The notes below the pieces were generated by a model that did not search any database, was not told the DNA's origin, and was given only the letters and a program-made list of their open reading frames with translations. A stretch of 48,207 nt of DNA, from contig JAGQPW010000020.1 in assembly GCA_020426515.1 (NCBI GenBank), forward strand, positions 1 through 48,207, given 5' to 3'. The position numbers were made by a program, and so were the translations under genes. The number at the start of each line of letters is the position of its first letter. Within the stretch, counting starts at the first letter, position 1. Below are positions 3,678 through 37,036 of this stretch, one piece after another. This DNA is from Planctomycetaceae bacterium (lineage in GTDB: Bacteria > Planctomycetota > Planctomycetia > Planctomycetales > Planctomycetaceae).

Positions 3678-3719
3678 ACAAAAAAACAGGCGACGCCACG
3701 GAGGGGGCATCGCCTGTTT
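3678..3719 (-). terminator. intrinsic terminator of the Flp-like pilin gene
   Basis: Read on the minus strand, a 14-bp stem (3706-3719 with 3684-3697, one mismatch) is followed by an uninterrupted run of seven T. It begins 33 nt after the stop codon of the pilin-like gene, so that gene is probably transcribed alone. Confidence 0.85.
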
Positions 3720-3752: not shown

Positions 3753-4082
3753 TTATGGATTAACCTTTGGGCCTTCGACAACGGCGGCGTCGCAAGCGAT
3801 GGCGCACTGGTTGTTGTCGCAGTCATCGACGCCATCGACGAACAAACTGCCGCGAGTATAGGCATGGAGTTGGCCACTCTGATCGAGCTTGTGGAAGCCG
3901 CTGAAGGCGTACGACTGGTTCAGAGAACCAATGGCATCGGCAACGTCGTTCAGTTCGGTGTTGATGGCGTGCTGAACTTCGCTCAGGCCTACAACGAGAC
4001 CGATCACAAGAATCGTGGCGACCAGCACCAACTCAGCAGAGATGATGAAACCGGCTTCATCGTTCAGAAATTGATTCAACAT
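3753..4082 (-). CDS. Flp-like type IVb pilin candidate
   Basis: 109-residue protein: a short N terminus (MLNQFLNDEAG), a 20-residue hydrophobic helix with an embedded Glu (SAELVLVATILVIGLVVGL), an amphipathic segment with NTELNDVADAIGSLNQSY, and a variable C-terminal part with four Cys (DDCDNNQCAIAC). This matches the architecture of Flp/Fap pilins and TadE-type pseudopilins. If cleaved after Gly11, the Glu sits at +6 rather than the usual +5. aaagga stands about 8 nt before the ATG. Monocistronic, with its own terminator. It is the best candidate in the window for the major pilin of the Tad system at 30.1-37.0 kb. Identity as a pilin is inferred from architecture, not from clear sequence identity. 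Confidence 0.65.
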   Translation of the reverse strand: MLNQFLNDEAGFIISAELVLVATILVIGLVVGLSEVQHAINTELNDVADAIGSLNQSYAFSGFHKLDQSGQLHAYTRGSLFVDGVDDCDNNQCAIACDAAVVEGPKVNP

Positions 4083-4186
4083 GGCATGTCCTTTTTGTGT
4101 TTCCCCAATCGATTAAATGACGGCCTTCGACTTGAAAGAGGTTACTCGCCAAGGTTTGAGACCAGAGTAACCGGACCGCCGTGCAA

Positions 4187-4215
4187 CAACGCTGCCATGG
4201 GGTGATGCAGCGTTG
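4187..4215. promoter_or_regulatory. hairpin upstream of the pilin-like gene
   Basis: caacgctgc (4187-4195) pairs perfectly with gcagcgttg (4207-4215) around an 11-nt loop, 105 nt before the pilin-like start at 4082. If transcription begins further upstream it would form in the leader. Role unknown. Confidence 0.4.
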
Positions 4216-4230
4216 CGTTTCCCCCCGGAG

Positions 4231-4516
4231 CAAGCTGCAACTTGCCCGGGGCTGTTTCCGTTGAGCTTTCGCTCATATGTCAACCAGCAGCACCGCACGC
4301 GGAGGCTGGTGAGTCTTCAACAGGACGACTCCGAAGTGCCGTCCCACACACACACTGGAGAGCAGTTGAGTCGGCACCGACAGAGGCCGTCACACGAGAG
4401 GCTGTCACACACACAGCCAACCTCTCGATACCTCTGCGGTCGGAAATTCGATCAGTGCGTCACGACTGACCAAATCCCCTCACAACTCACTGCGTTGCGT
4501 CCGTCAGAACGCCTGC
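4231..4516. repeat. 286-bp duplicated non-coding element, copy 1
   Basis: Aligns almost end to end with 4581-4867, about 350 nt further on and in the same orientation. The start (caagctgcaacttgcc against caagtaacaacttgcc) and the end (ccgtcagaacgcctgc in both) are shared. A ~50-bp core around 4390-4430 (cgagaggctgtcacacacac and flanks) is identical and can fold back on itself. Both copies keep one frame open, but with low-complexity peptides and no start signal. It lies upstream of the pilin-like gene. Confidence 0.85.
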
Positions 4517-4580
4517 GACTCCAAAACACACTTCATGCGGCGTCGCCAGTTCTTAACCCGGCGTCGCCAGCTTCCCCGAA

Positions 4581-4867
4581 CAAGTAACAACTTGCCCGAG
4601 GCAGTCTCTGTTGAGCTTTCGCTCATATGTCATCCAGCAGCACCGCACACGGAGGCTGGTGAGTCTTCAACAGGACGGCCCCGAAGGGCCGTCCCGCACA
4701 CACACAGGAGAGCAGTTGAGTCGGCACCAACGGAGGCCGTCACACGAGAGGCTGTCACACACACAGCCAACCTCTCGATACCTCCGGGGTCGGATATTCG
4801 GTCAGTGCGTCACGACCAACCAAATCCCCACACAACTCACTGCTGTTGCGTCCGTCAGAACGCCTGC
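4581..4867. repeat. 286-bp duplicated non-coding element, copy 2
   Basis: Second copy of the element at 4231-4516, with scattered substitutions and one 1-nt insertion near the end. It contains a perfect 9-bp hairpin with a cgaa loop (4673-4694); the matching position in copy 1 has two mismatches. Between the copies, cggcgtcgccag occurs twice (near 4539 and 4559). Confidence 0.85.
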
Positions 4868-5423
4868 TGCCCGTTTGTCCGGGAGCATCAGGACAGAAAG
4901 CAAAGTCGATGCCAGTGGCACAACCGGCACAACCACCAAACAACACGTATCTCAATACAAAAACAGCAGTTACAAAAACTAAAAACTCACAGGCACACCC
5001 TCTGGACCGGCCCGACTTGTAAGGAAACCCAATCACTTGTGTTCACGTTGTGACGATTCTTCTGAGCACGCTGAACACAACGGTTCCCCCGTTCGTCGGA
5101 GAGGCGTCAGTTGCCGCGATTGCAGCAAGTTCCCGGAAGATGCCCGCAATCGGACATGGTCCGATCAATCTCAAGGCGACGACTGCAACAGTCGCTGGAC
5201 CTCTGTGGGTCAGGACGGCACAACCACTCCAGCCGACGCAGTCACAACGGGCACTGCCGCCGAGAATGTTCGGACTGATTACGGGACCACTCTCGGCGGA
5301 AACACGGCGTCAGGAGCGGAGTGCGGGCGGACCAAATGCGAGCCGGATATGGAGCAAGGAGGCGGTCGACGATTTGTCCGACAGAGAGAGGCTGACTCAA
5401 AACTTGAATTGAGCAGCGGTCGG
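4868..5423. other. spacer with no recognisable gene
   Basis: Two overlapping plus-strand frames cover about 5037-5423. Neither has a ribosome binding site or resembles a known family, and one runs on as antisense through the cyclase gene. A short ACAACC-rich phrase (ggcacaaccggcacaaccac) occurs at 4917-4936. I see nothing else I can support. Confidence 0.5.
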
Positions 5424-8761: not shown

Positions 8762-9982
8762 CTAGCGGGACGCCGCAGCAGTATTATTCAATGGCTCAGC
8801 CAGATCTCCAATCGCAAAGACATACACGACACTCGGATGATCTGCTTCGAAATCGTTGTCCGACCCCACCAGCAGGGTCTGGCGCCCATCCGCCAGAGTC
8901 GGACCGAATGTCAGCCCTTCCAGCTTCTCCGGAAAGTTCGCGCTGGCCAATCCGTAAGCTGGATCCAGCAGATCGAGAAAGACTTCCTTCTGCACAGGCA
9001 CAATCGAGTCCGGCAATGCACCATGAGGCAACGAGTCGAGATGCTGAACCTCTGTCGCATTGGCCAGATTGATTCGCATGATCTTCTTGAACCGCGCCTG
9101 GTCCCCCGGCTCACCATCCCGTTCGATCACGAGGAATTCCGAGTCGCTGACCGCCAGAATTTCATTGAGTCCGTTGTCATCTGAATCGAGCCGATACACA
9201 AACTCCTTCACGTTTCCGGACGCAATGTCCACACACACCAGCCGGCAGTTTCGCCCAACGGGCTTTCCGTTGTCTTCGCGTTCCCCATCCTGCAGCAACA
9301 CGTGCTGCATGAGTCCGACGAGCATCGAGCCATCGGGTGTGATTGCCAGTCCTTCCATCCCCTTGTTGGATGAACGACCAGACTGATTGAGCGCGTTCTC
9401 CGCCTTCTTGGAATCCGCCGGGTGAAGAATCTGCAGGTGTTTGGGAAGTGCAATGGAACGAATCGCACGGCCAGTGGCATCAAACTCGATCAGGCTGGGA
9501 CCATATTCATCGGAAATCCAGCAGTGGCCATTGCCTGTGAGACGCACTCCTTCCGGGTCAAACCGCTGCGACCGATCCGCGGTTGCTTCAAACTGCCGCG
9601 AATCTCCCGTGAAGGGACGCCCCTGCACATCCGAAAGCTGCTGCGTTTTGAGCACCTTCAGTTGCACCGGCTGTGGCGTCCCAGGCTGAATATCAATTTC
9701 GATCAGCTGATAGCGACAGATGTAACCTGTCGCCCCATCGTCCGGCCCGCGATCGGGCAGGGCAATATAGCGATTCGCCTCGCCAGTGTACTCCAGCGCC
9801 GAGAAGCCCCCCAGGCGATTGTGCGGTTCTCCATTCGTCAGCAGTTCGGTCAGCGGCGACAAGTCAGTCGCCGTGCCGGAGAACTCACCGACCCCAAGCA
9901 GTTCCGGAACCTGTGCCCAAACGGGAAGTGTTGTGCAAAGGCTCAAGACCATCGCAAACGAGAGACGAAACGCAGCATGCAT
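8762..9982 (-). CDS. secreted esterase-like/phytase-like propeller protein
   Basis: 406-residue exported protein resembling the 'esterase-like activity of phytase' family (PF13449). A signal peptide (AFRLSFAMVLSLCTTLPVWAQ) is followed by blocks typical of that family: GGFSALEY, ALPDRGPDDGATGY, FDPEGVRL, WISDEYGPSLIEFD, NKGMEGLAITPDG and a closing KLEGLTFGP. The blocks suggest a beta-propeller in the periplasm or outside the cell. Reaction not established. The start at 9982 is set by the signal peptide; the frame extends to 10204 only through the terminator of the neighbouring gene, which argues against the longer version. Confidence 0.82.
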   Translation of the reverse strand: MHAAFRLSFAMVLSLCTTLPVWAQVPELLGVGEFSGTATDLSPLTELLTNGEPHNRLGGFSALEYTGEANRYIALPDRGPDDGATGYICRYQLIEIDIQPGTPQPVQLKVLKTQQLSDVQGRPFTGDSRQFEATADRSQRFDPEGVRLTGNGHCWISDEYGPSLIEFDATGRAIRSIALPKHLQILHPADSKKAENALNQSGRSSNKGMEGLAITPDGSMLVGLMQHVLLQDGEREDNGKPVGRNCRLVCVDIASGNVKEFVYRLDSDDNGLNEILAVSDSEFLVIERDGEPGDQARFKKIMRINLANATEVQHLDSLPHGALPDSIVPVQKEVFLDLLDPAYGLASANFPEKLEGLTFGPTLADGRQTLLVGSDNDFEADHPSVVYVFAIGDLAEPLNNTAAASR

Positions 9983-28358: not shown

Positions 28359-28476
28359 CGAGACGCCGGGGCGCAGACATCCTGATCCCTACAGGCACAC
28401 TGACCGCTGCAAACGTTCATCGCGCTGCGCGGTCGAAACGGGCAGCCTTCCAGCCGCGTTTTTGATAGAGCATCAA

Positions 28477-28522: not shown

Positions 28523-28595
28523 TGACCCCATGGGGATTCGAACCCCAGTTCGCGGACTGAAAATCCGCTGTCCTAGGCCTCTAGACGATGGGGCC
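28523..28595 (-). tRNA. tRNA-Glu (anticodon UUC)
   Basis: 73-nt cloverleaf on the minus strand. Acceptor stem GGCCCCA/TGGGGTC (one G-T wobble at 2:71); D-arm region GTCTAGAGGCCTAGGAC; anticodon stem GCGGA/TCCGC with loop TTTTCAG, giving anticodon TTC; T-arm TGGGG-TTCGAAT-CCCCA; discriminator A. The 3' CCA is not encoded. Sequence closely follows bacterial tRNA-Glu. Confidence 0.97.
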
Positions 28596-29790: not shown

Positions 29791-30098
29791 ACGGCTCTGT
29801 GTCCCACCGCTCGCGGACTCTCCGGTTTCGCTGCGCTCGTGCGTCAGACGGCCACTGACTGGTAGTGCCGATCATGCAGCGCCGTTGAGATTCGACAACA
29901 CCCGCACAACCGGCATAACCGGTCCCACCAACCGGCTCTGATGCCATCATGTGGGCAAACTTAAGCGCTTCTTGCAGTTCCACGCATCTTTTCGGAAACG
30001 TGTGGTAGGGTTGCAACACAGCATGGGCAATATACACACATTGCGTGGCATAGGTATTGCTCATTCCGAATCGAGTTACCTCCATCAACAGTTGTCAC
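29791..30098. other. leader/promoter region of the tad operon
   Basis: 308 nt without a gene. Three aaccgg words occur within 28 nt (29908, 29917, 29930). A possible -10 box (tatacac, 30031) would give a leader of about 55-60 nt, but the -35 candidate (ttgcaa, 30011) is only 14 nt away, so the promoter is tentative. Confidence 0.35.
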
Positions 30099-30713
30099 AT
30101 GTTCGATCTGCATCCAGCGACGCTTGTTCTCATTCTGGCCGTGGGGCTGTTCACAGCCGTGGCAGCCGTGTGGGATACGCGCACCAGACGAATCCCCAAC
30201 TTTCTGACCCTACCTATGTTCGGTCTGGGCTGGGTATTCCAGATTGTGATGTCCGTGATGTACGGCTGGGAACACCTTGCATCGGCGTTCCTGGGCTTTC
30301 TCGTCGGCTTTGGAATTCTGTTTGTCCTCTGGTTCGTCGGTAGCGGCGGGGCCGGAGACGTGAAACTGATGGGGGCACTCAGCGTGTGGCTGGGCTTCCA
30401 GCTCACTCTGTACGTGCTGTTCATCAGCATTCTGGCCGTGCTGGCCGGAACCGTCGGCATCGTCATTTACTCGCTGATGACTCGCGGCGTGCGAGACACC
30501 AAGAAGCGATATGTCGGAACGGGAAAGACCCCCGCCGGACAGAAGCAGCAATCCGAAACTCAGCAGGCCAAGCAGGGTCGCCGGTTTATGGCATTCGCCA
30601 CTCCCGTGGCCCTCGCCACCTGGGCTGTGCTGCTGTGGAAGGCGCCGACCCTCAACGTCACGCCCGATGTGAAGGCTCCTGGAAACATTCCTGCTGCCGT
30701 TCAGCCTGAGTAA
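30099..30713 (+). CDS. A24 prepilin peptidase (TadV/CpaA-like)
   Basis: 204-residue polytopic membrane aspartyl protease that cleaves prepilin leaders. The two catalytic motifs are present: WDTRTRRIPN (Asp26) and GGAGDVKLMG (Asp87 in GxGD). It has about five to six membrane segments and lacks the N-terminal methylase domain of PilD, as in TadV/CpaA. A Lys/Gln-rich cytoplasmic loop (about 145-175) precedes the last membrane segment, and the C-terminal tail is Pro-rich. The ATG at 30099 is preferred over a TTG 42 nt upstream. First gene of the tad operon; the TadE gene follows 14 nt later. It could also process the DUF1559 proteins and the Flp-like pilin in this window. Confidence 0.88.
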   Translation: MFDLHPATLVLILAVGLFTAVAAVWDTRTRRIPNFLTLPMFGLGWVFQIVMSVMYGWEHLASAFLGFLVGFGILFVLWFVGSGGAGDVKLMGALSVWLGFQLTLYVLFISILAVLAGTVGIVIYSLMTRGVRDTKKRYVGTGKTPAGQKQQSETQQAKQGRRFMAFATPVALATWAVLLWKAPTLNVTPDVKAPGNIPAAVQPE

Positions 30714-30727
30714 TTGAAAAGCGGAAC

Positions 30728-31141
30728 ATGTACGTCCAACACACCACAACTCGACCTTCCCGAAAGCGACGCGGGCTCCTCACCATGGAGCTTGTGATGG
30801 TGCTTCCCATCCTGATGTTCATGCTGATGGGACTGTTCGAGTTTTCCTTCCTGTTCCTGGCGCAGGGCGAGTTGGAAGAAGCGGCACAGTCCGGTGCCCG
30901 CCTCGCAACTCTGCAAAGCGTGCAGGAAGAGGACGTGATCGCCGAAGTCCAGCGTTCATTGCCCGATCGGCTGGCACAGAGCGTTTCCGTTCGCGCGTTC
31001 CTGGGGGAGCACTCGGGCGACGAAGTCATTGTCATCGTCCGCGTCCCATCGCGAGCCGCAGCGCCGGATCTGCTGTGGGCCATCGGATATTCGCTCGAAG
31101 GACGTTCCGTCACCGCGGAAACAAGAATGGCCAAAGAGTAG
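30728..31141 (+). CDS. TadE-like pseudopilin
   Basis: 137 residues. A basic leader (TTRPSRKRRG) is followed by LLTMELVMVLPILMFMLMGL, with Glu at +5 after the presumed Gly cleavage site, then FEFSFLFLAQGELEEAAQSGARLAT, the TadE signature. The remainder is a small alpha/beta domain. TadE-type minor pilins are processed by the operon's prepilin peptidase and help assemble the Flp pilus. ATG at 30728 with a purine-rich upstream region; 14 nt after the peptidase stop. Confidence 0.88.
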   Translation: MYVQHTTTRPSRKRRGLLTMELVMVLPILMFMLMGLFEFSFLFLAQGELEEAAQSGARLATLQSVQEEDVIAEVQRSLPDRLAQSVSVRAFLGEHSGDEVIVIVRVPSRAAAPDLLWAIGYSLEGRSVTAETRMAKE

Positions 31142-31223
31142 CCACAACTGATCCACTGAACTTTGCACAGAGACATCACTACCCGGGGCACCACTGGAGC
31201 CCACAAGTCACTGGAGTTGAATC

Positions 31224-32261
31224 GTGAGACGCCTATCACCCGCCATGTTGACCATGCTGATGCTGGGAGCGATTGGATTGCTCGTGGCCATGTACTTTGG
31301 AAAAAAGCTGCTCTTCGCCAAGGTCGAAGTGCCACAGGAGCGCATTGAAAATGTGCCCATGGCCCTCTCGGATCTGAAGGCCGGCACGAAGATCACCGAT
31401 GCTCACATCGCCACCGGTCGTTCGCTCGCCTCCAAGCTCACTCGCGACACCGTGCGGACCAGCCGCATCGTCGTGGGCCGCGTCGTGAAGAACGACATCA
31501 AGGCTGCTGAACCCATCAGCACCTTCGACCTGTATCCCGCTGGCGAAGGACCTCCACCGGAAGTTTCGCCCGGTATGCGAGCCATCACGCTCAACCTTCC
31601 CGCTCCCATGGTACGTCCAGGCGGGTACGTGGACATTCACTTCACCCCCAGTCAGATGCCGGACCAGGCTCTTACCGGCGGAACGACACTCACCCTCCTC
31701 AAGGGCGTGAAGGTTCTGGAAGTCGATGGCAATCGAAACTCTGGCCTCAGCACCAATGGCGACAACGCACGCGTGAGCCTCGAAGTCAGCGTCGAACAGG
31801 CCAACATTCTCTTGCTCGTGAAAGACAAGGGAGAACTCAACCTGATTTACACTCCCGATGGTGCTGGTGATGGACTTGTCAGCCTTTCAGACGAAGACCG
31901 CGCCACACTGGACGAAATCCTCGGACTCAAGAAGCCCGATCGCGAAGAAGAAGCCAAGCCCTTTGTGACGGAAGTCTACAGCGGTGCCGGTCGTCGACTG
32001 CAGCAATTCCGGGACGGCAAGCGAGCAGACCTCTACGCCATCGAACGCCACGACTACTTCCTCCGCAACCAGTCCGCCACTCAAGGAATCTGGGGGGGCA
32101 ATGGATACGGTGGGTATGGCGGCTTTGGCTACGGAACCGTTGGCGATCGTCCCGCTCCACTCTCCAACTACGGCGGCTACTACTCCGTGCCCAGCAATGG
32201 GGGCGGAGCCTCTGGTCCCGCAGGAGGTCCCGGCATGGATCTCGGTGGCGACGGAAACTAG
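31224..32261 (+). CDS. cpaB: Flp pilus assembly protein CpaB/RcpC
   Basis: 345 residues. An N-terminal membrane anchor (LTMLMLGAIGLLVAMYFG), then a SAF domain (about 38-100: NVPMALSDLKAGTKITDAHI, RIVVGRVVKNDIKAAEPI) and the RcpC domain (GMRAITLNLPAP, VRPGGYVDIHFT, VSLEVSVEQANILLL). CpaB acts in the periplasm and normally works with the RcpA secretin. After about residue 280 an unusual tail rich in Gly, Tyr, Asn and Pro (GIWGGNGYGGYGGFGYG) is not part of the family fold. The GTG at 31224 has ggag 9 nt upstream. Confidence 0.92.
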   Translation: MRRLSPAMLTMLMLGAIGLLVAMYFGKKLLFAKVEVPQERIENVPMALSDLKAGTKITDAHIATGRSLASKLTRDTVRTSRIVVGRVVKNDIKAAEPISTFDLYPAGEGPPPEVSPGMRAITLNLPAPMVRPGGYVDIHFTPSQMPDQALTGGTTLTLLKGVKVLEVDGNRNSGLSTNGDNARVSLEVSVEQANILLLVKDKGELNLIYTPDGAGDGLVSLSDEDRATLDEILGLKKPDREEEAKPFVTEVYSGAGRRLQQFRDGKRADLYAIERHDYFLRNQSATQGIWGGNGYGGYGGFGYGTVGDRPAPLSNYGGYYSVPSNGGGASGPAGGPGMDLGGDGN

Positions 32262-32340
32262 GCGTCAAGGATTTTCTCGCTCCTCCGGCCACATGGCCGG
32301 GGAGCGTCTTTGTTAGCTCACTTTGTACAGGAATCATTCA

Positions 32341-33555
32341 GTGCTCGCGTTGCGACGACAACCTGATGCGTCTCGCTCGCTCCTTCGCCGGGGCAGCATG
32401 CTGCCTGCGCTGGCAATTTCCTTGCTGGTCGTCGGCAGTTGCCTCGCGCTCGTGCTGGACAGCCTCTGGCTGAAAATGGCTCGCCGAGAACTGCAAACCG
32501 CCGCCGATGCTGCTGTCCTGGCGGCCGCCGGAGAACTGGCCAGCGACGAACTCCTGAAAGTTGACCCCGACCGCGAATTGCTGGCCCTCAGAGCCCGCAA
32601 AGTGGCGGCAAATGTCGCAGCCCTGAATCGCGCTGCCGGAAAACAGGTTTTCGTCGACCCGCTCATTGGAGAAGACGTACGGTTGGGACGCATTACCCAG
32701 CACGAAAATGGAACAGCCGTGTTTCTGGAAACAGATCAGAATCCAACGGCTGTCGTCCTGCTCGCACATTGTGGCCGAGCCCAGGGAAATCCAGTCTCAC
32801 TGTTCTTTCCACATCTGACGGGCGAACCCACCGGCGATGTCACCTGCCGGGCCGAAGCGTCCATCAACAACCAGGTCTACGGAGTCCGCCCGCTGGACAA
32901 CGCACCCGTCCCCGCCTTGCCCCTGGCCATTCTGGAATCACATTCCGATCCACGTCGGCTGGAAACCTGGGCCCTGCAAATCGAAGCTCGCCGCGGACAG
33001 GATCGCTACCGCTTCAATGCCGAAACCGGAGAAGTCGAACGGGGCCAGGATGGCATCCCGGAAATCGTGCTGCACAGCACTCCTCCCGGGAGCGAAGAAG
33101 AAGAGGAACAGCGAGGAAACGTGCAGATTGTTGACCTGGGAACAAACCTGCAACTGCAGCAGGTGCAGCGACAGATCACTCACGGCTGGTCGTGGCGTGA
33201 CCTGCAGGACCTGGGCACCGAACTGCGACTGGACCAGGGGCCCGTTCAACTTCGCAGTTGCGAACGAATTGAGAACACCTTGAATCACAGCCTGCAGGAA
33301 ATGATCGGCAAGAGCCGCATCGTCCTCCTGTACTCCGCCACAGGTCCTGGTGGCCCGAATGGCGTGACATCCGCTGAGATTTCCCGGCTGGTTGCCGGAC
33401 GCATCATGGATGTGAAGTCCGGTCAGCAGACATTGGAAATGGTTCTGCAACCTACCGTCATTAATACTCGTCTGGCGTTGGTCAACGAAGATCCGTTCGC
33501 CAGCTCCACTCAATTTCAAAACCAATACATTCGTCGACTGTCGCTGACAAACTAG
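32341..33555 (+). CDS. TadG-like pilus assembly protein
   Basis: About 404 residues. The N terminus has a basic leader (RSLLRRGS), a membrane helix (ALAISLLVVGSCLALVL) and the signature RRELQTAADAAVLAAAGELA of the TadG-like N-terminal domain (PF13400). The large remainder is extracytoplasmic and unassigned. It contains a Glu-rich loop (GSEEEEEQRG) and a C-terminal strand-rich region (SRIVLLYSATGPGGPNG). A GTG at 32341 with aggaa 8 nt upstream is preferred; the frame reaches back 18 nt to a TTG. In the operon it occupies the position between CpaB and the ATPase where the RcpA secretin and TadZ are commonly found. Confidence 0.82.
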   Translation: MLALRRQPDASRSLLRRGSMLPALAISLLVVGSCLALVLDSLWLKMARRELQTAADAAVLAAAGELASDELLKVDPDRELLALRARKVAANVAALNRAAGKQVFVDPLIGEDVRLGRITQHENGTAVFLETDQNPTAVVLLAHCGRAQGNPVSLFFPHLTGEPTGDVTCRAEASINNQVYGVRPLDNAPVPALPLAILESHSDPRRLETWALQIEARRGQDRYRFNAETGEVERGQDGIPEIVLHSTPPGSEEEEEQRGNVQIVDLGTNLQLQQVQRQITHGWSWRDLQDLGTELRLDQGPVQLRSCERIENTLNHSLQEMIGKSRIVLLYSATGPGGPNGVTSAEISRLVAGRIMDVKSGQQTLEMVLQPTVINTRLALVNEDPFASSTQFQNQYIRRLSLTN

Positions 33556-33614
33556 GGAACGGCGAGTGCCCTCCCAGTTTCAGCACACCGAATTCAACCG
33601 TTGAGAACGCAGTT

Positions 33615-34940
33615 ATGGTCGCCTTCTCGGACACAATTGACCCACCTCGTCACTTTCAGCAGCTCAAGACTCGTCTGCACCGGCAGATCGTCGATGCGAT
33701 CGACATGTCGAAGGCCGGGGAAATCGGTGATCAGGAATTCCGGCGACAGCTGGAAGCACTGGCCGACCACCTTGTCTCCCGGCCAGAGAACGGAATGTCC
33801 GCCGAGGACCGTCCCCGCATGGTTCGGGAACTCCTCGACGAGATCTACGGATTCGGCCCCATTCAACACCTGATGGACGACCCGTCCGTGAGCGACGTGC
33901 TCGTCAACGGGGCCGACTCAGTGTTCGTTGAACGTCACGGGATTCTGGAACGTACCGACGTTCGATTCGCGGACAACGACCACCTGATGCACTTCATTCA
34001 GCGAATTGTCGGTCAGGCTGGTCGGCGTATCGACGAAGTCTCGCCGATGGTCGATGCCAAACTCGCCGATGGTTCTCGTCTGCACGCCGTGATTCCACCA
34101 CTGGCTCTGCGTGGTCCCACGTTGTCCATTCGCCGTTTCAAAACCGACATCGTCGAGTTTGAAGACATGGTGCAAATGGGAACGCTCGCCCCCGAGATGG
34201 CCGACTTCCTGATCCACGCTGTCCGTTCGCGAATGAACATTCTGCTTTCCGGCGGTACAGGTGCCGGTAAGACGACGATGCTCAACAACCTCGGCCGCTT
34301 CATCCCCGCCTCCGAACGTGTCATCACGATCGAGGAAACCGCGGAATTGCAGTTGCAGCAGGCCGACGTCGTGGGACTGGAAACACGTATGCCCAACGTC
34401 GAAGGGAAGGGAATCATCACGCAGCGCGATCTGCTGAGAAACTCGCTGCGTATGCGTCCCGACCGCATTATCGTCGGCGAAGCTCGTGGAACTGAAGTGC
34501 TCGACATGCTCCAGGCCATGAACACCGGTCACGACGGGTCGATGAGCACAGTCCACGCCAACGAAACACGCGATGCTCTGCATCGACTTGAACTGATGAT
34601 CGCGCTCTCCGGAGCCGAACTCCCCACCAGCGTGTCCCGACAGTACATCGCTTCGGCCATCCAGCTGTTCGTCCACGTCGCCCGTCTGAGCAGCGGGGAA
34701 CGTAAAGTGATGCGAATCTCCGAATTGACCGGCGTCACCAACGGCGAGTTCGATATCGAAGACATCTTCATCTTCCGTACCGCCGGAATCGACAGTCGAG
34801 GCAAAGTGCTGGGAGCGTTTTACGCTACCGGTTACGAACCTCAGTGCCTGCGACGCATGGCGTCCAAGGGCTTCGACCTCAACCCGCGTATGTTTGCCGC
34901 TCGTGAACTGAAAACCGGCAGCGGTTCCGTACACGATTAG
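33615..34940 (+). CDS. cpaF: Tad secretion ATPase CpaF/TadA
   Basis: 441-residue VirB11/GspE-type ATPase that powers Flp pilus assembly at the inner membrane. Visible: N-terminal domain with YGFGPIQHLMDDPSVSDVLV, Walker A GGTGAGKTT (213-221), the Asp/Glu box TIEETAELQL, Walker B RIIVGE (284-289), and the His box GHDGSMSTVHAN (305-316). The length and all nucleotide-binding motifs are normal. The ATG at 33615 has a purine-rich region upstream. It is followed by the platform genes tadB and tadC. Confidence 0.96.
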   Translation: MVAFSDTIDPPRHFQQLKTRLHRQIVDAIDMSKAGEIGDQEFRRQLEALADHLVSRPENGMSAEDRPRMVRELLDEIYGFGPIQHLMDDPSVSDVLVNGADSVFVERHGILERTDVRFADNDHLMHFIQRIVGQAGRRIDEVSPMVDAKLADGSRLHAVIPPLALRGPTLSIRRFKTDIVEFEDMVQMGTLAPEMADFLIHAVRSRMNILLSGGTGAGKTTMLNNLGRFIPASERVITIEETAELQLQQADVVGLETRMPNVEGKGIITQRDLLRNSLRMRPDRIIVGEARGTEVLDMLQAMNTGHDGSMSTVHANETRDALHRLELMIALSGAELPTSVSRQYIASAIQLFVHVARLSSGERKVMRISELTGVTNGEFDIEDIFIFRTAGIDSRGKVLGAFYATGYEPQCLRRMASKGFDLNPRMFAARELKTGSGSVHD

Positions 34941-35002
34941 TTTCACACGATCATCGCTGCCACACATTGATCCGTTGACAGGCTTCACCACTGAGTATCC
35001 CC

Positions 35003-35851
35003 ATGGACACGCCAGTAATTTCACAGCACACCGACTTTTCCGGGATCCTCCGGGAACGCGAATCCTACGCCAGTGAGAACGACGAGTCCGTCGGTAATCA
35101 GATCAACGGCTGGTTCGACCGACTGATGCTCCAGTGCGGCTGGGGAGTATCTCCCGAAATTGTGCTGCTGCTGTCGGTCTTCTTTGCAGTCATCGTCGGT
35201 GGACTCGTCTTCGTGATCCAGGAGGACCTGCTCGCCACATCGCTGGCCGGAATGCTGGGCTTTCTGGGCCCGTTCCTCGTCGCCATGTTTGCCCGCGGCC
35301 GCCGACAACAGAAGATGTCACAGCAGCTGCCTCCAATGATCGAAGAACTCGCCCGTGCCGCCAAGACCGGACGCAGTCTTGAGAACTGCCTCGCGCTGGT
35401 CGCCAACGATACACCCGCTCCACTGGGCCCCGAAATGCAGTTCTGCACCCGCAAGCTGAACCTTGGGCTCAACATTGAAGATGCCATGCTGGACCTGCCA
35501 CGCCGCACAGGGGTCGTGGCCACCAGCCTGCTGGCAACCGCACTGGGCGTTCACCGCCAGAACGGGGGAGACCTCGTGAAGGTGCTCGAACGACTGGCGG
35601 AAACCATGCGTGACCGTCTGCAGTTCCAGGGACGCCTGCGAGCAGCGACCGCCGCCAGTCGTGCGACGGCCGTGCTGATGATTCTGCTCCCTCCGGCAAT
35701 TCTGGCCTTCTTCATCTTCCGCGACCCCGAATATCTGACCAAGTTGTTGCAGTCCACCTGGGGCTGGCGAATGACGATCACGGCATTTTTCCTGGAGTTC
35801 ATCGGAGCCATCTTTGTCTGGCGCATCCTCAAGGGAAGTGAACAGTCATAA
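35003..35851 (+). CDS. tadB: Tad platform protein TadB (T2SSF domain)
   Basis: 282 residues. Two membrane segments (VLLLSVFFAVIVGGLVFVI and LAGMLGFLGPFLVAMFA), a cytoplasmic T2SSF domain (QQLPPMIEELARAAKTGRSLENCL, ATALGVHRQNGGDLVKVLERLA) and two closing membrane segments (AVLMILLPPAILAFFIF, ITAFFLEFIGAIFVW). TadB and TadC form the inner-membrane platform through which the ATPase drives pilus assembly. The first ~40 residues are a polar extension. Position directly after the ATPase gene supports TadB over a GspF homologue. Confidence 0.92.
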   Translation: MDTPVISQHTDFSGILRERESYASENDESVGNQINGWFDRLMLQCGWGVSPEIVLLLSVFFAVIVGGLVFVIQEDLLATSLAGMLGFLGPFLVAMFARGRRQQKMSQQLPPMIEELARAAKTGRSLENCLALVANDTPAPLGPEMQFCTRKLNLGLNIEDAMLDLPRRTGVVATSLLATALGVHRQNGGDLVKVLERLAETMRDRLQFQGRLRAATAASRATAVLMILLPPAILAFFIFRDPEYLTKLLQSTWGWRMTITAFFLEFIGAIFVWRILKGSEQS

Positions 35852-35914
35852 GTCTCGACCTGATCACTCTTGCCCGGCAGTCATGCTCCTTACGTTGAAT
35901 TCACGAGCTGAATC

Positions 35915-37036
<1,122 letters not shown>

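Follow-up and report, generated by a model that had tools for sequence, protein, structure and literature searches.

A predicted structured leader domain, tandem-duplicated ahead of a Flp-like pilin gene in a Planctomycetaceae bacterium

The flp locus and its duplicated element

The window, a stretch of 48,207 nucleotides from a Planctomycetaceae bacterium (contig JAGQPW010000020.1), carries on its minus strand a gene for a 109-aa protein that gave no significant match in Pfam or NCBIfam, and that we take to be a Flp-like pilin from its resemblance to such proteins. This naming is supported by the Tad assembly genes present in the same window. A Tad/Flp assembly cluster (30057-37036, plus strand), about 26 kb from flp, comprises genes for a prepilin peptidase, CpaB/RcpC, TadE/G-like and secretion ATPase proteins and two T2SSF proteins. 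The next gene upstream of flp encodes a putative cyclase, and both copies of a duplicated element sit in the 1.3-kb gap 5' of flp. The minus-strand orientation of the flp gene (3753-4082) puts both copies on its 5' side, upstream, where the initial annotation had placed them. The features of the locus are the following.

3684-3719, minus strand: intrinsic-terminator-like hairpin after flp, 14-bp stem with a T-rich tail
3753-4082, minus strand: Flp-like pilin gene, 109 aa, relatives in 35 loci
4083-4223, minus strand: unduplicated 3' leader, predicted stems P9-P12 and ribosome-binding region (alifold against the sister species)
4140-4172, minus strand: predicted stem P10, loop GGTCTCAA common to the sister species
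4187-4215, minus strand: predicted stem P9, loop with CACCCC, also in the sister species
4224-4516, minus strand: copy 1 of the predicted structured domain, stems P0-P8 (repeat and own-genome search)
4323-4344, minus strand: predicted stem P5 of copy 1, the hairpin of copy 2 with one mismatch and one G-U pair
4383-4434, minus strand: 52-nt core of copy 1, identical in both copies, predicted stems P3/P4 and GUGUGUG loop
4517-4573, minus strand: spacer between the copies, with two imperfect copies of a 19-nt repeat containing GGCGTCGCCAG
4574-4867, minus strand: copy 2 of the predicted structured domain, stems P0-P8, closest to the presumed 5' end (repeat and own-genome search)
4673-4694, minus strand: predicted stem P5 of copy 2, a perfect 9-bp hairpin with a 4-nt UUCG loop
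4733-4784, minus strand: the same 52-nt core in copy 2
4899-4915, minus strand: putative sigma-54-like promoter CTGGCATCGACTTTGCT, 11 of 13 consensus positions (consensus scan)

The two copies are in direct orientation and share 91% identity over 293/294 nt with one 1-nt indel. They align without gaps over 270 nt at 91% (4224-4493 and 4574-4843, spacing 350) and, after the indel, over 23 identical nt (4494-4516 and 4845-4867, spacing 351). The match of one copy with the other had an E-value of 6.4e-115 and the next match in the host genome (5.8 Mb, 92% complete) one of 1.48, which places the duplication far from chance. The description of near-identical, same-orientation copies about 350 nt apart was thus confirmed, with a true start at 4224, 7 nt before the position 4231 noted at first. 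The unchanged core of about 50 bp proved to be 52 nt long, and the 9-bp hairpin is perfect in copy 2 only, as had been stated. The copies had also been described as non-coding, and our data were in agreement with this: over the 270 ungapped nucleotides a single frame out of six stays open in the two copies, and 18 of its 23 changed codons are non-synonymous, five being synonymous, with codon position 2 changed most often. A coding sequence was rejected on these grounds. The motif GGCGTCGCCAG, found twice in the spacer, is complementary to one arm of the flp terminator (3682-3697), and these spacer repeats may be what is left of an earlier tandem arrangement.

Folding predictions for the minus strand give each copy about nine stems. 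The predicted energy was -139.4 kcal/mol for copy 2 (4572-4868; z -4.94, none of 200 shuffles as good) and -134 kcal/mol for copy 1 (4215-4517; z -3.05, none of 100 shuffles as good), with plus-strand z values of -2.56 and -1.49, respectively. When 240 stretches of the window were scanned (120 positions on each of the two strands), the minus-strand stretch 4401-4690, which straddles both copies, ranked second (z -4.29); the first-ranked one, at 28401, overlaps a tRNA identified by Rfam search (28523-28595). An unusually good fold was also seen on both strands (z -3.9 and -3.7) at 9601-9890, inside a predicted protein gene. The P5 loop letters are UUCG on the minus strand of both copies, the predicted fold of copy 1 opening the top of the stem.

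When RNAalifold was applied to the two copies it returned 95 pairs, of which none was broken and one changed on both sides, a less fair test because the structure is fitted to both copies. A fairer test consists of folding one copy and comparing the substitutions of the other with random substitutions. Copy 1 broke six pairs of the fold of copy 2 against 10.8 expected (p 0.013), and eight pairs of the fold of copy 1 were broken against 8.5 expected (p 0.48). Copy 2 also had a better fold than random mutants of copy 1 (p 0.003); with the roles exchanged the effect was weaker (p 0.07). On the opposite strand, the same test gave eight broken pairs against 12.1 (p 0.035) and p 0.70 in the other direction, with energy p values of 0.047 and 0.20. 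Evidence from the two copies alone is mixed.

Relatives of the element and conservation of pairing

A DNA search of 169 other genomes of the family yielded six matches at E <= 0.01, none longer than 36 nt. The 36-nt match (G003) lies within a protein gene, has only a short peptide in common with the window and was taken as chance; a 22-nt exact match (G017) falls near the end of a gene that is presumably sulfatase-like. Covariance models were built from the 5' half of the element (R1), its 3' half (R2) and the 3' leader (R3). Apart from the window copies in the host genome, R2 found in the same 169 genomes a match in genome G001 (C840:219-352, minus strand, 33.2 bits, E 1.2e-3); this search was run with stricter filters, and its repetition with laxer filters in 38 genomes gave the same match. 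G001 represents a sister species, the only other genome of the genus among those listed by the searches. Its element, present in one copy at about 50% identity, is located directly 5' of a flp start codon (L048:81) and on the same strand; the genome is 62% complete and the flp gene is interrupted by a contig end. The significant match covers the 3' half, R1 reaching the sister element at E 2.0 only; the MAFFT alignment of window and sister takes in the entire element and extends along the leader towards the start codon. The genes next upstream differ between the two species, the link with flp being kept in this one relative. A homologue elsewhere, as sought with a covariance model in genomes of the family, was therefore obtained once, 5' of flp.

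Other candidates were set aside: R1 in G131 (E 0.21) and R2 in G137 (E 0.015) and G144 (E 0.13) had no flp gene in the surrounding 2.3-3.1 kb of sequence. With filters off, R2 and R1 revealed no convincing further relative among 29 flp loci each (best E 0.068 and 0.044), and the single match of R3 in 21 loci, at E 0.6, adjoins the start of a paralogue in the host genome (L051). Relatives of the cyclase were found at E <= 1e-40 in 29 other family genomes, none of the 29 loci having a flp gene at E <= 1e-8 in flanks of up to 1.5 kb. A control search of the window against the sister, whose matches fell mostly in repeated genes, was discarded. Only these two species are known to carry the P0-P8 domain.

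Conservation of structure was evaluated by alifold z values computed on plain MAFFT alignments against column shuffles. The alignment of both copies with the sister element gave z -5.81 on the sense strand and -2.97 on the antisense strand. For copy 2 with the sister the values were -6.85 and -3.35, and for copy 1 with the sister -2.98 and -0.22. For 95 controls, copy 2 or the sister element was paired with another flp leader (70 cases) or with a segment of the window (25 cases). These had a mean z of -0.23 (sd 1.15, minimum -4.93), with two at or below -3; in this run copy 2 with the sister reached -5.58, and copy 1 with the sister -2.71, three of the 95 controls being lower than the latter. 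The lowest control, the L117 leader (z -4.93), showed no convincing common architecture and looks like chance.

The structure of the window copies was also evaluated out of sample. Of its 89 pairs, 49 were kept in the sister, against 33.7 (sd 4.4) expected from shuffled letters, a count that none of 2000 shuffles reached; slid partners kept 30-44. In 14 pairs both bases had changed with pairing retained, compared with 0-6 for slid partners, and of 64 pairs in which copy 2 and the sister differ, 24 still pair. A helix table made by hand, whose register was chosen by hand and which serves as illustration, contained 76 pairs, 33 of them unchanged, 34 altered at both positions with pairing kept, five altered at one position and four broken. 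Such counts depend on the register: for P12, five of five fell to one of four in the MAFFT register. Our claims rest on the alifold z values, the control pairings and the out-of-sample test. Much of the architecture, not every helix, is conserved across the two species. The covariation looked for in the copies thus exists as pairing that persists through sequence change, and it is stronger on the sense strand. At sites differing between the copies the sister agreed with copy 1 at nine and with copy 2 at eight (neither at seven, gap at two), so both copies appear to evolve alike and neither looks abandoned. Taken alone, the sister element folds unusually well on the flp strand (z -3.68) and on the other (z -3.79), and a single sequence therefore does not settle the strand.

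The 140 nt adjoining the start codon look structured too, with an alifold z against the sister of -4.13 sense and -0.89 antisense. Short loops persisting across both species are GUGACGC, GUGUGUG, CACCCC and GGUCUCAA. All six letters of CACCCC in the P9 loop are predicted to be unpaired with a probability of at least 0.90 in both species. Pairing of the CCCC of this loop with a GGGG about 24 nt 5' of the AUG is possible in both species and is given here as a lead only. What is constant in the element is its shape and a few short loops, not a long invariant core.

Promoter-like sites and flp leaders in planctomycetes

Sigma-54 promoters have a consensus with GG at -24 and GC at -12, scored here over 13 positions. 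The minus-strand site at 4915-4899 has 11 of these positions together with the GG/GC core, and fits a putative sigma-54 promoter; it precedes the start codon by 833 nt, lies a short way 5' of copy 2, and is one of five sites with at least 11/13 on both strands of the 48 kb. RpoN is encoded in the same genome. The first pair of P0 in copy 2 is 37 nt downstream of the -12 C. In the sister the best site, near -470, is weak (8/13) and is likewise 37 nt from P0.

The promoter scan was extended to 66 flp upstream regions of up to 900 nt (L046-L058, L103-L136, L048 and the window). Sites with at least 10/13 were found in 44 of the 66 regions on the sense strand and in three on the antisense strand, against 8.6 expected from shuffles, and sites with at least 11/13 in 22 regions against 1.5 expected; in these counts at least three sites were counted twice in tandem arrays (L056, L057, L122), the genes are related and some starts are extrapolated. 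These sites stand between about 75 and more than 800 nt from the flp genes. In related genomes, three and five flp genes occur as tandem arrays (L046, L056), separated by gaps of about 160 to 1000 nt.

Folding was evaluated for 34 of the 44 leaders, those of 60-480 nt, a set from which the leader of the window and nine others fell out. Their mean fold z was -1.81, versus -0.69 for 31 equal-length stretches upstream of the sites (paired Wilcoxon p 0.0016), and the antisense mean was -1.05 (p 0.0016). A z of -3 was reached by six of 34 sense, five of 34 antisense and one of 31 upstream sequences. Conservation of structure was also seen when leaders of other flp genes were compared with one another: alifold z values of -3.95 sense and -4.49 antisense were obtained for leaders L050/L052, -3.84 and -1.57 for L108/L114/L116, and weaker ones, -2.12 and -0.56, for L105/L106. 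At L115:1957, the stretch from 300 to 60 nt 5' of flp has a fold z of -6.8 and a perfect 13-bp hairpin, which may be the terminator of a preceding flp gene. CsrA binds at ANGGA motifs. A CsrA-controlled leader was rejected, this motif being no more frequent than expected (20 against 21.2 in the 34 leaders, three against 2.7 in the leader of the window).

Possible roles and comparison with known systems

We estimate at roughly 0.7 the probability that the element belongs to a structured, cis-acting and unusually long leader of the flp mRNA, the main domain of which has been tandem-duplicated. The leader is probably transcribed from the sigma-54-like site at 4915-4899. Since this site lies just 5' of copy 2, the order would be promoter, copy 2, spacer, copy 1, P9-P12, ribosome-binding site, flp and terminator, with a transcript start near 4888, about 20 nt before copy 2. 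That the leader acts in cis on flp expression appears quite probable. Two marks of a structured leader were observed, namely a position 5' of flp in a relative and a structure kept between two species. As for the role of the leader, the folded 5' end might shield the mRNA from decay and tune translation of an abundantly needed pilin, an effect that the second copy would extend; we hold this at somewhat less than even odds. The initial suggestion of a duplicated regulatory or RNA element is supported by the sister homologue, with its same position and strand and with pairing kept through sequence change.

A role in stability or translation is favored over a sensor or an RNA acting in trans because shape and short loops persist and other flp leaders differ. 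A ligand- or protein-sensing, riboswitch-like leader, in which the two copies would be tandem aptamers sharpening the flp response, is nevertheless conceivable, although unlikely. A whole, discrete domain was duplicated, and a distinct structured 3' part by the start codon follows it; tandem aptamers with a sharper response are an established arrangement according to the available part of PMC9481103, and both species retain the P9-loop CACCCC and the GGGG about 24 nt 5' of the AUG, which could base-pair. However, long unpaired stretches conserved between species are few, conservation being limited to short loops; there is no Rfam match, no minus-strand terminator-like site in the leader, and the comparison involves two species. 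We found no clear hairpin that would mask the start site, and no attenuator or switch hairpin linked to the copies. A small RNA that stands alone or is processed, encoded 5' of flp, acting in trans and duplicated as many sRNA genes are, is somewhat less probable still. Its compact predicted fold, with GAAA loops and the UUCG loop in copy 2, and the equal divergence of the copies from the sister would suit such an RNA, but the structure signal runs on to the flp start codon, the domain adjoins flp in both species, and no minus-strand terminator-like site follows either copy; one such site on the plus strand falls inside copy 2.

Activator sites upstream are a usual part of sigma-54 promoters. 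If the real flp promoter were the weaker site at 4198-4182 (10/13, at -116), the duplicated DNA, rich in palindromes, could bind a sigma-54 activator. This is improbable: that site has no sister counterpart, the only GG/GC-cored site of the sister within 900 nt being near -470, whereas the site at -833 has one at the same 37-nt distance from P0; moreover, the sense strand gives the stronger signal of conserved structure, and leaders 3' of flp sigma-54-like sites fold better on average than the DNA upstream. A neutral local duplication of spacer DNA would account for the presence of just two copies, 91% alike, with one in the sister, and for the mixed outcome of the two-copy substitution test, but it would leave unexplained a structure conserved across species and copies that drift equally, and we regard it as very improbable. 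Least probable of all is a mobile, MITE-like non-coding repeat, an option raised by the initial annotation and suggested by two direct-orientation copies with hairpins. It is disfavored by the presence of two copies only in the host genome, by DNA matches in the 169 other genomes of the family that do not exceed 36 nt (E <= 0.01), and by a sole convincing structural relative at the corresponding place, adjoining flp on its 5' side.

If the preferred reading, a structured leader acting in cis, is right, the locus holds a large leader RNA outside Rfam and a testable layer of control for Flp pilins of Planctomycetota, with sigma-54 at initiation and a folded leader afterwards. It would also be a natural experiment in the duplication of an RNA domain, with one copy in the sister and two here, both predicted to fold. 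More tentatively, and with less conviction than for the shielding role, the Tad/Flp pilin genes of Planctomycetaceae might form a sigma-54 regulon whose long folded leaders are under selection for shape and not for sequence, each paralogue having its own fast-evolving leader, which can be lengthened by tandem duplication of its domain as at this locus. Such a regulon would imply a lineage-specific class of leader RNAs missed by ordinary sequence-based RNA discovery. This wider pattern of sigma-54-like sites and folded flp leaders could be examined in relatives available in culture, for example Thalassoglobus neptunius, where flp homologues are present (L111, L122).

With regard to known families, the initial statement that no named family fits holds for the 4227 families of Rfam: at gathering score the whole window gave one tRNA elsewhere and nothing in the copies, and 20 flp loci gave no match. 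Among the titles and opening lines of abstracts listed from the open-licence literature, no structured flp leader in Planctomycetes was found. The flpD motif presumably belongs to an unrelated gene and not to the flp pilin. Both flpD, listed for Euryarchaeota, and Rhodopirellula-1, listed for Proteobacteria and Planctomycetes, are structured RNA candidates from comparative genomics in the available part of PMC2864571. Our Rfam search does not exclude Rhodopirellula-1, to which the table of that source gives no Rfam number, and its likeness to the flp leader is one of description, as a candidate structured RNA.

Tandem riboswitch or aptamer leaders, for instance those for glycine as presented in the available part of PMC9481103, resemble the present case in that a folded domain is repeated ahead of one gene. 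They differ from it in that the domain here is about 290 nt long, with fast sequence turnover and with no ligand, Rfam family or recognized expression platform. In E. coli, the ompA mRNA has a structured 5' leader that lengthens its life. The predicted fold here is similar in placing stable hairpins near the 5' end of the message for a surface protein made in quantity; the flp leader is much longer than that of ompA, has many stems and contains a duplication. The terms flp, tad and pilin are absent from the available part of PMC12316311, which treats sigma-54 regulons including those of Planctomycetia; in Proteobacteria, the same part describes the major pilin gene pilA behind a predicted -24/-12 promoter. 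By comparison with these PilA promoters, the gene considered here is of the Flp/Tad type, belongs to Planctomycetota, and would have long folded leaders between promoter and gene.
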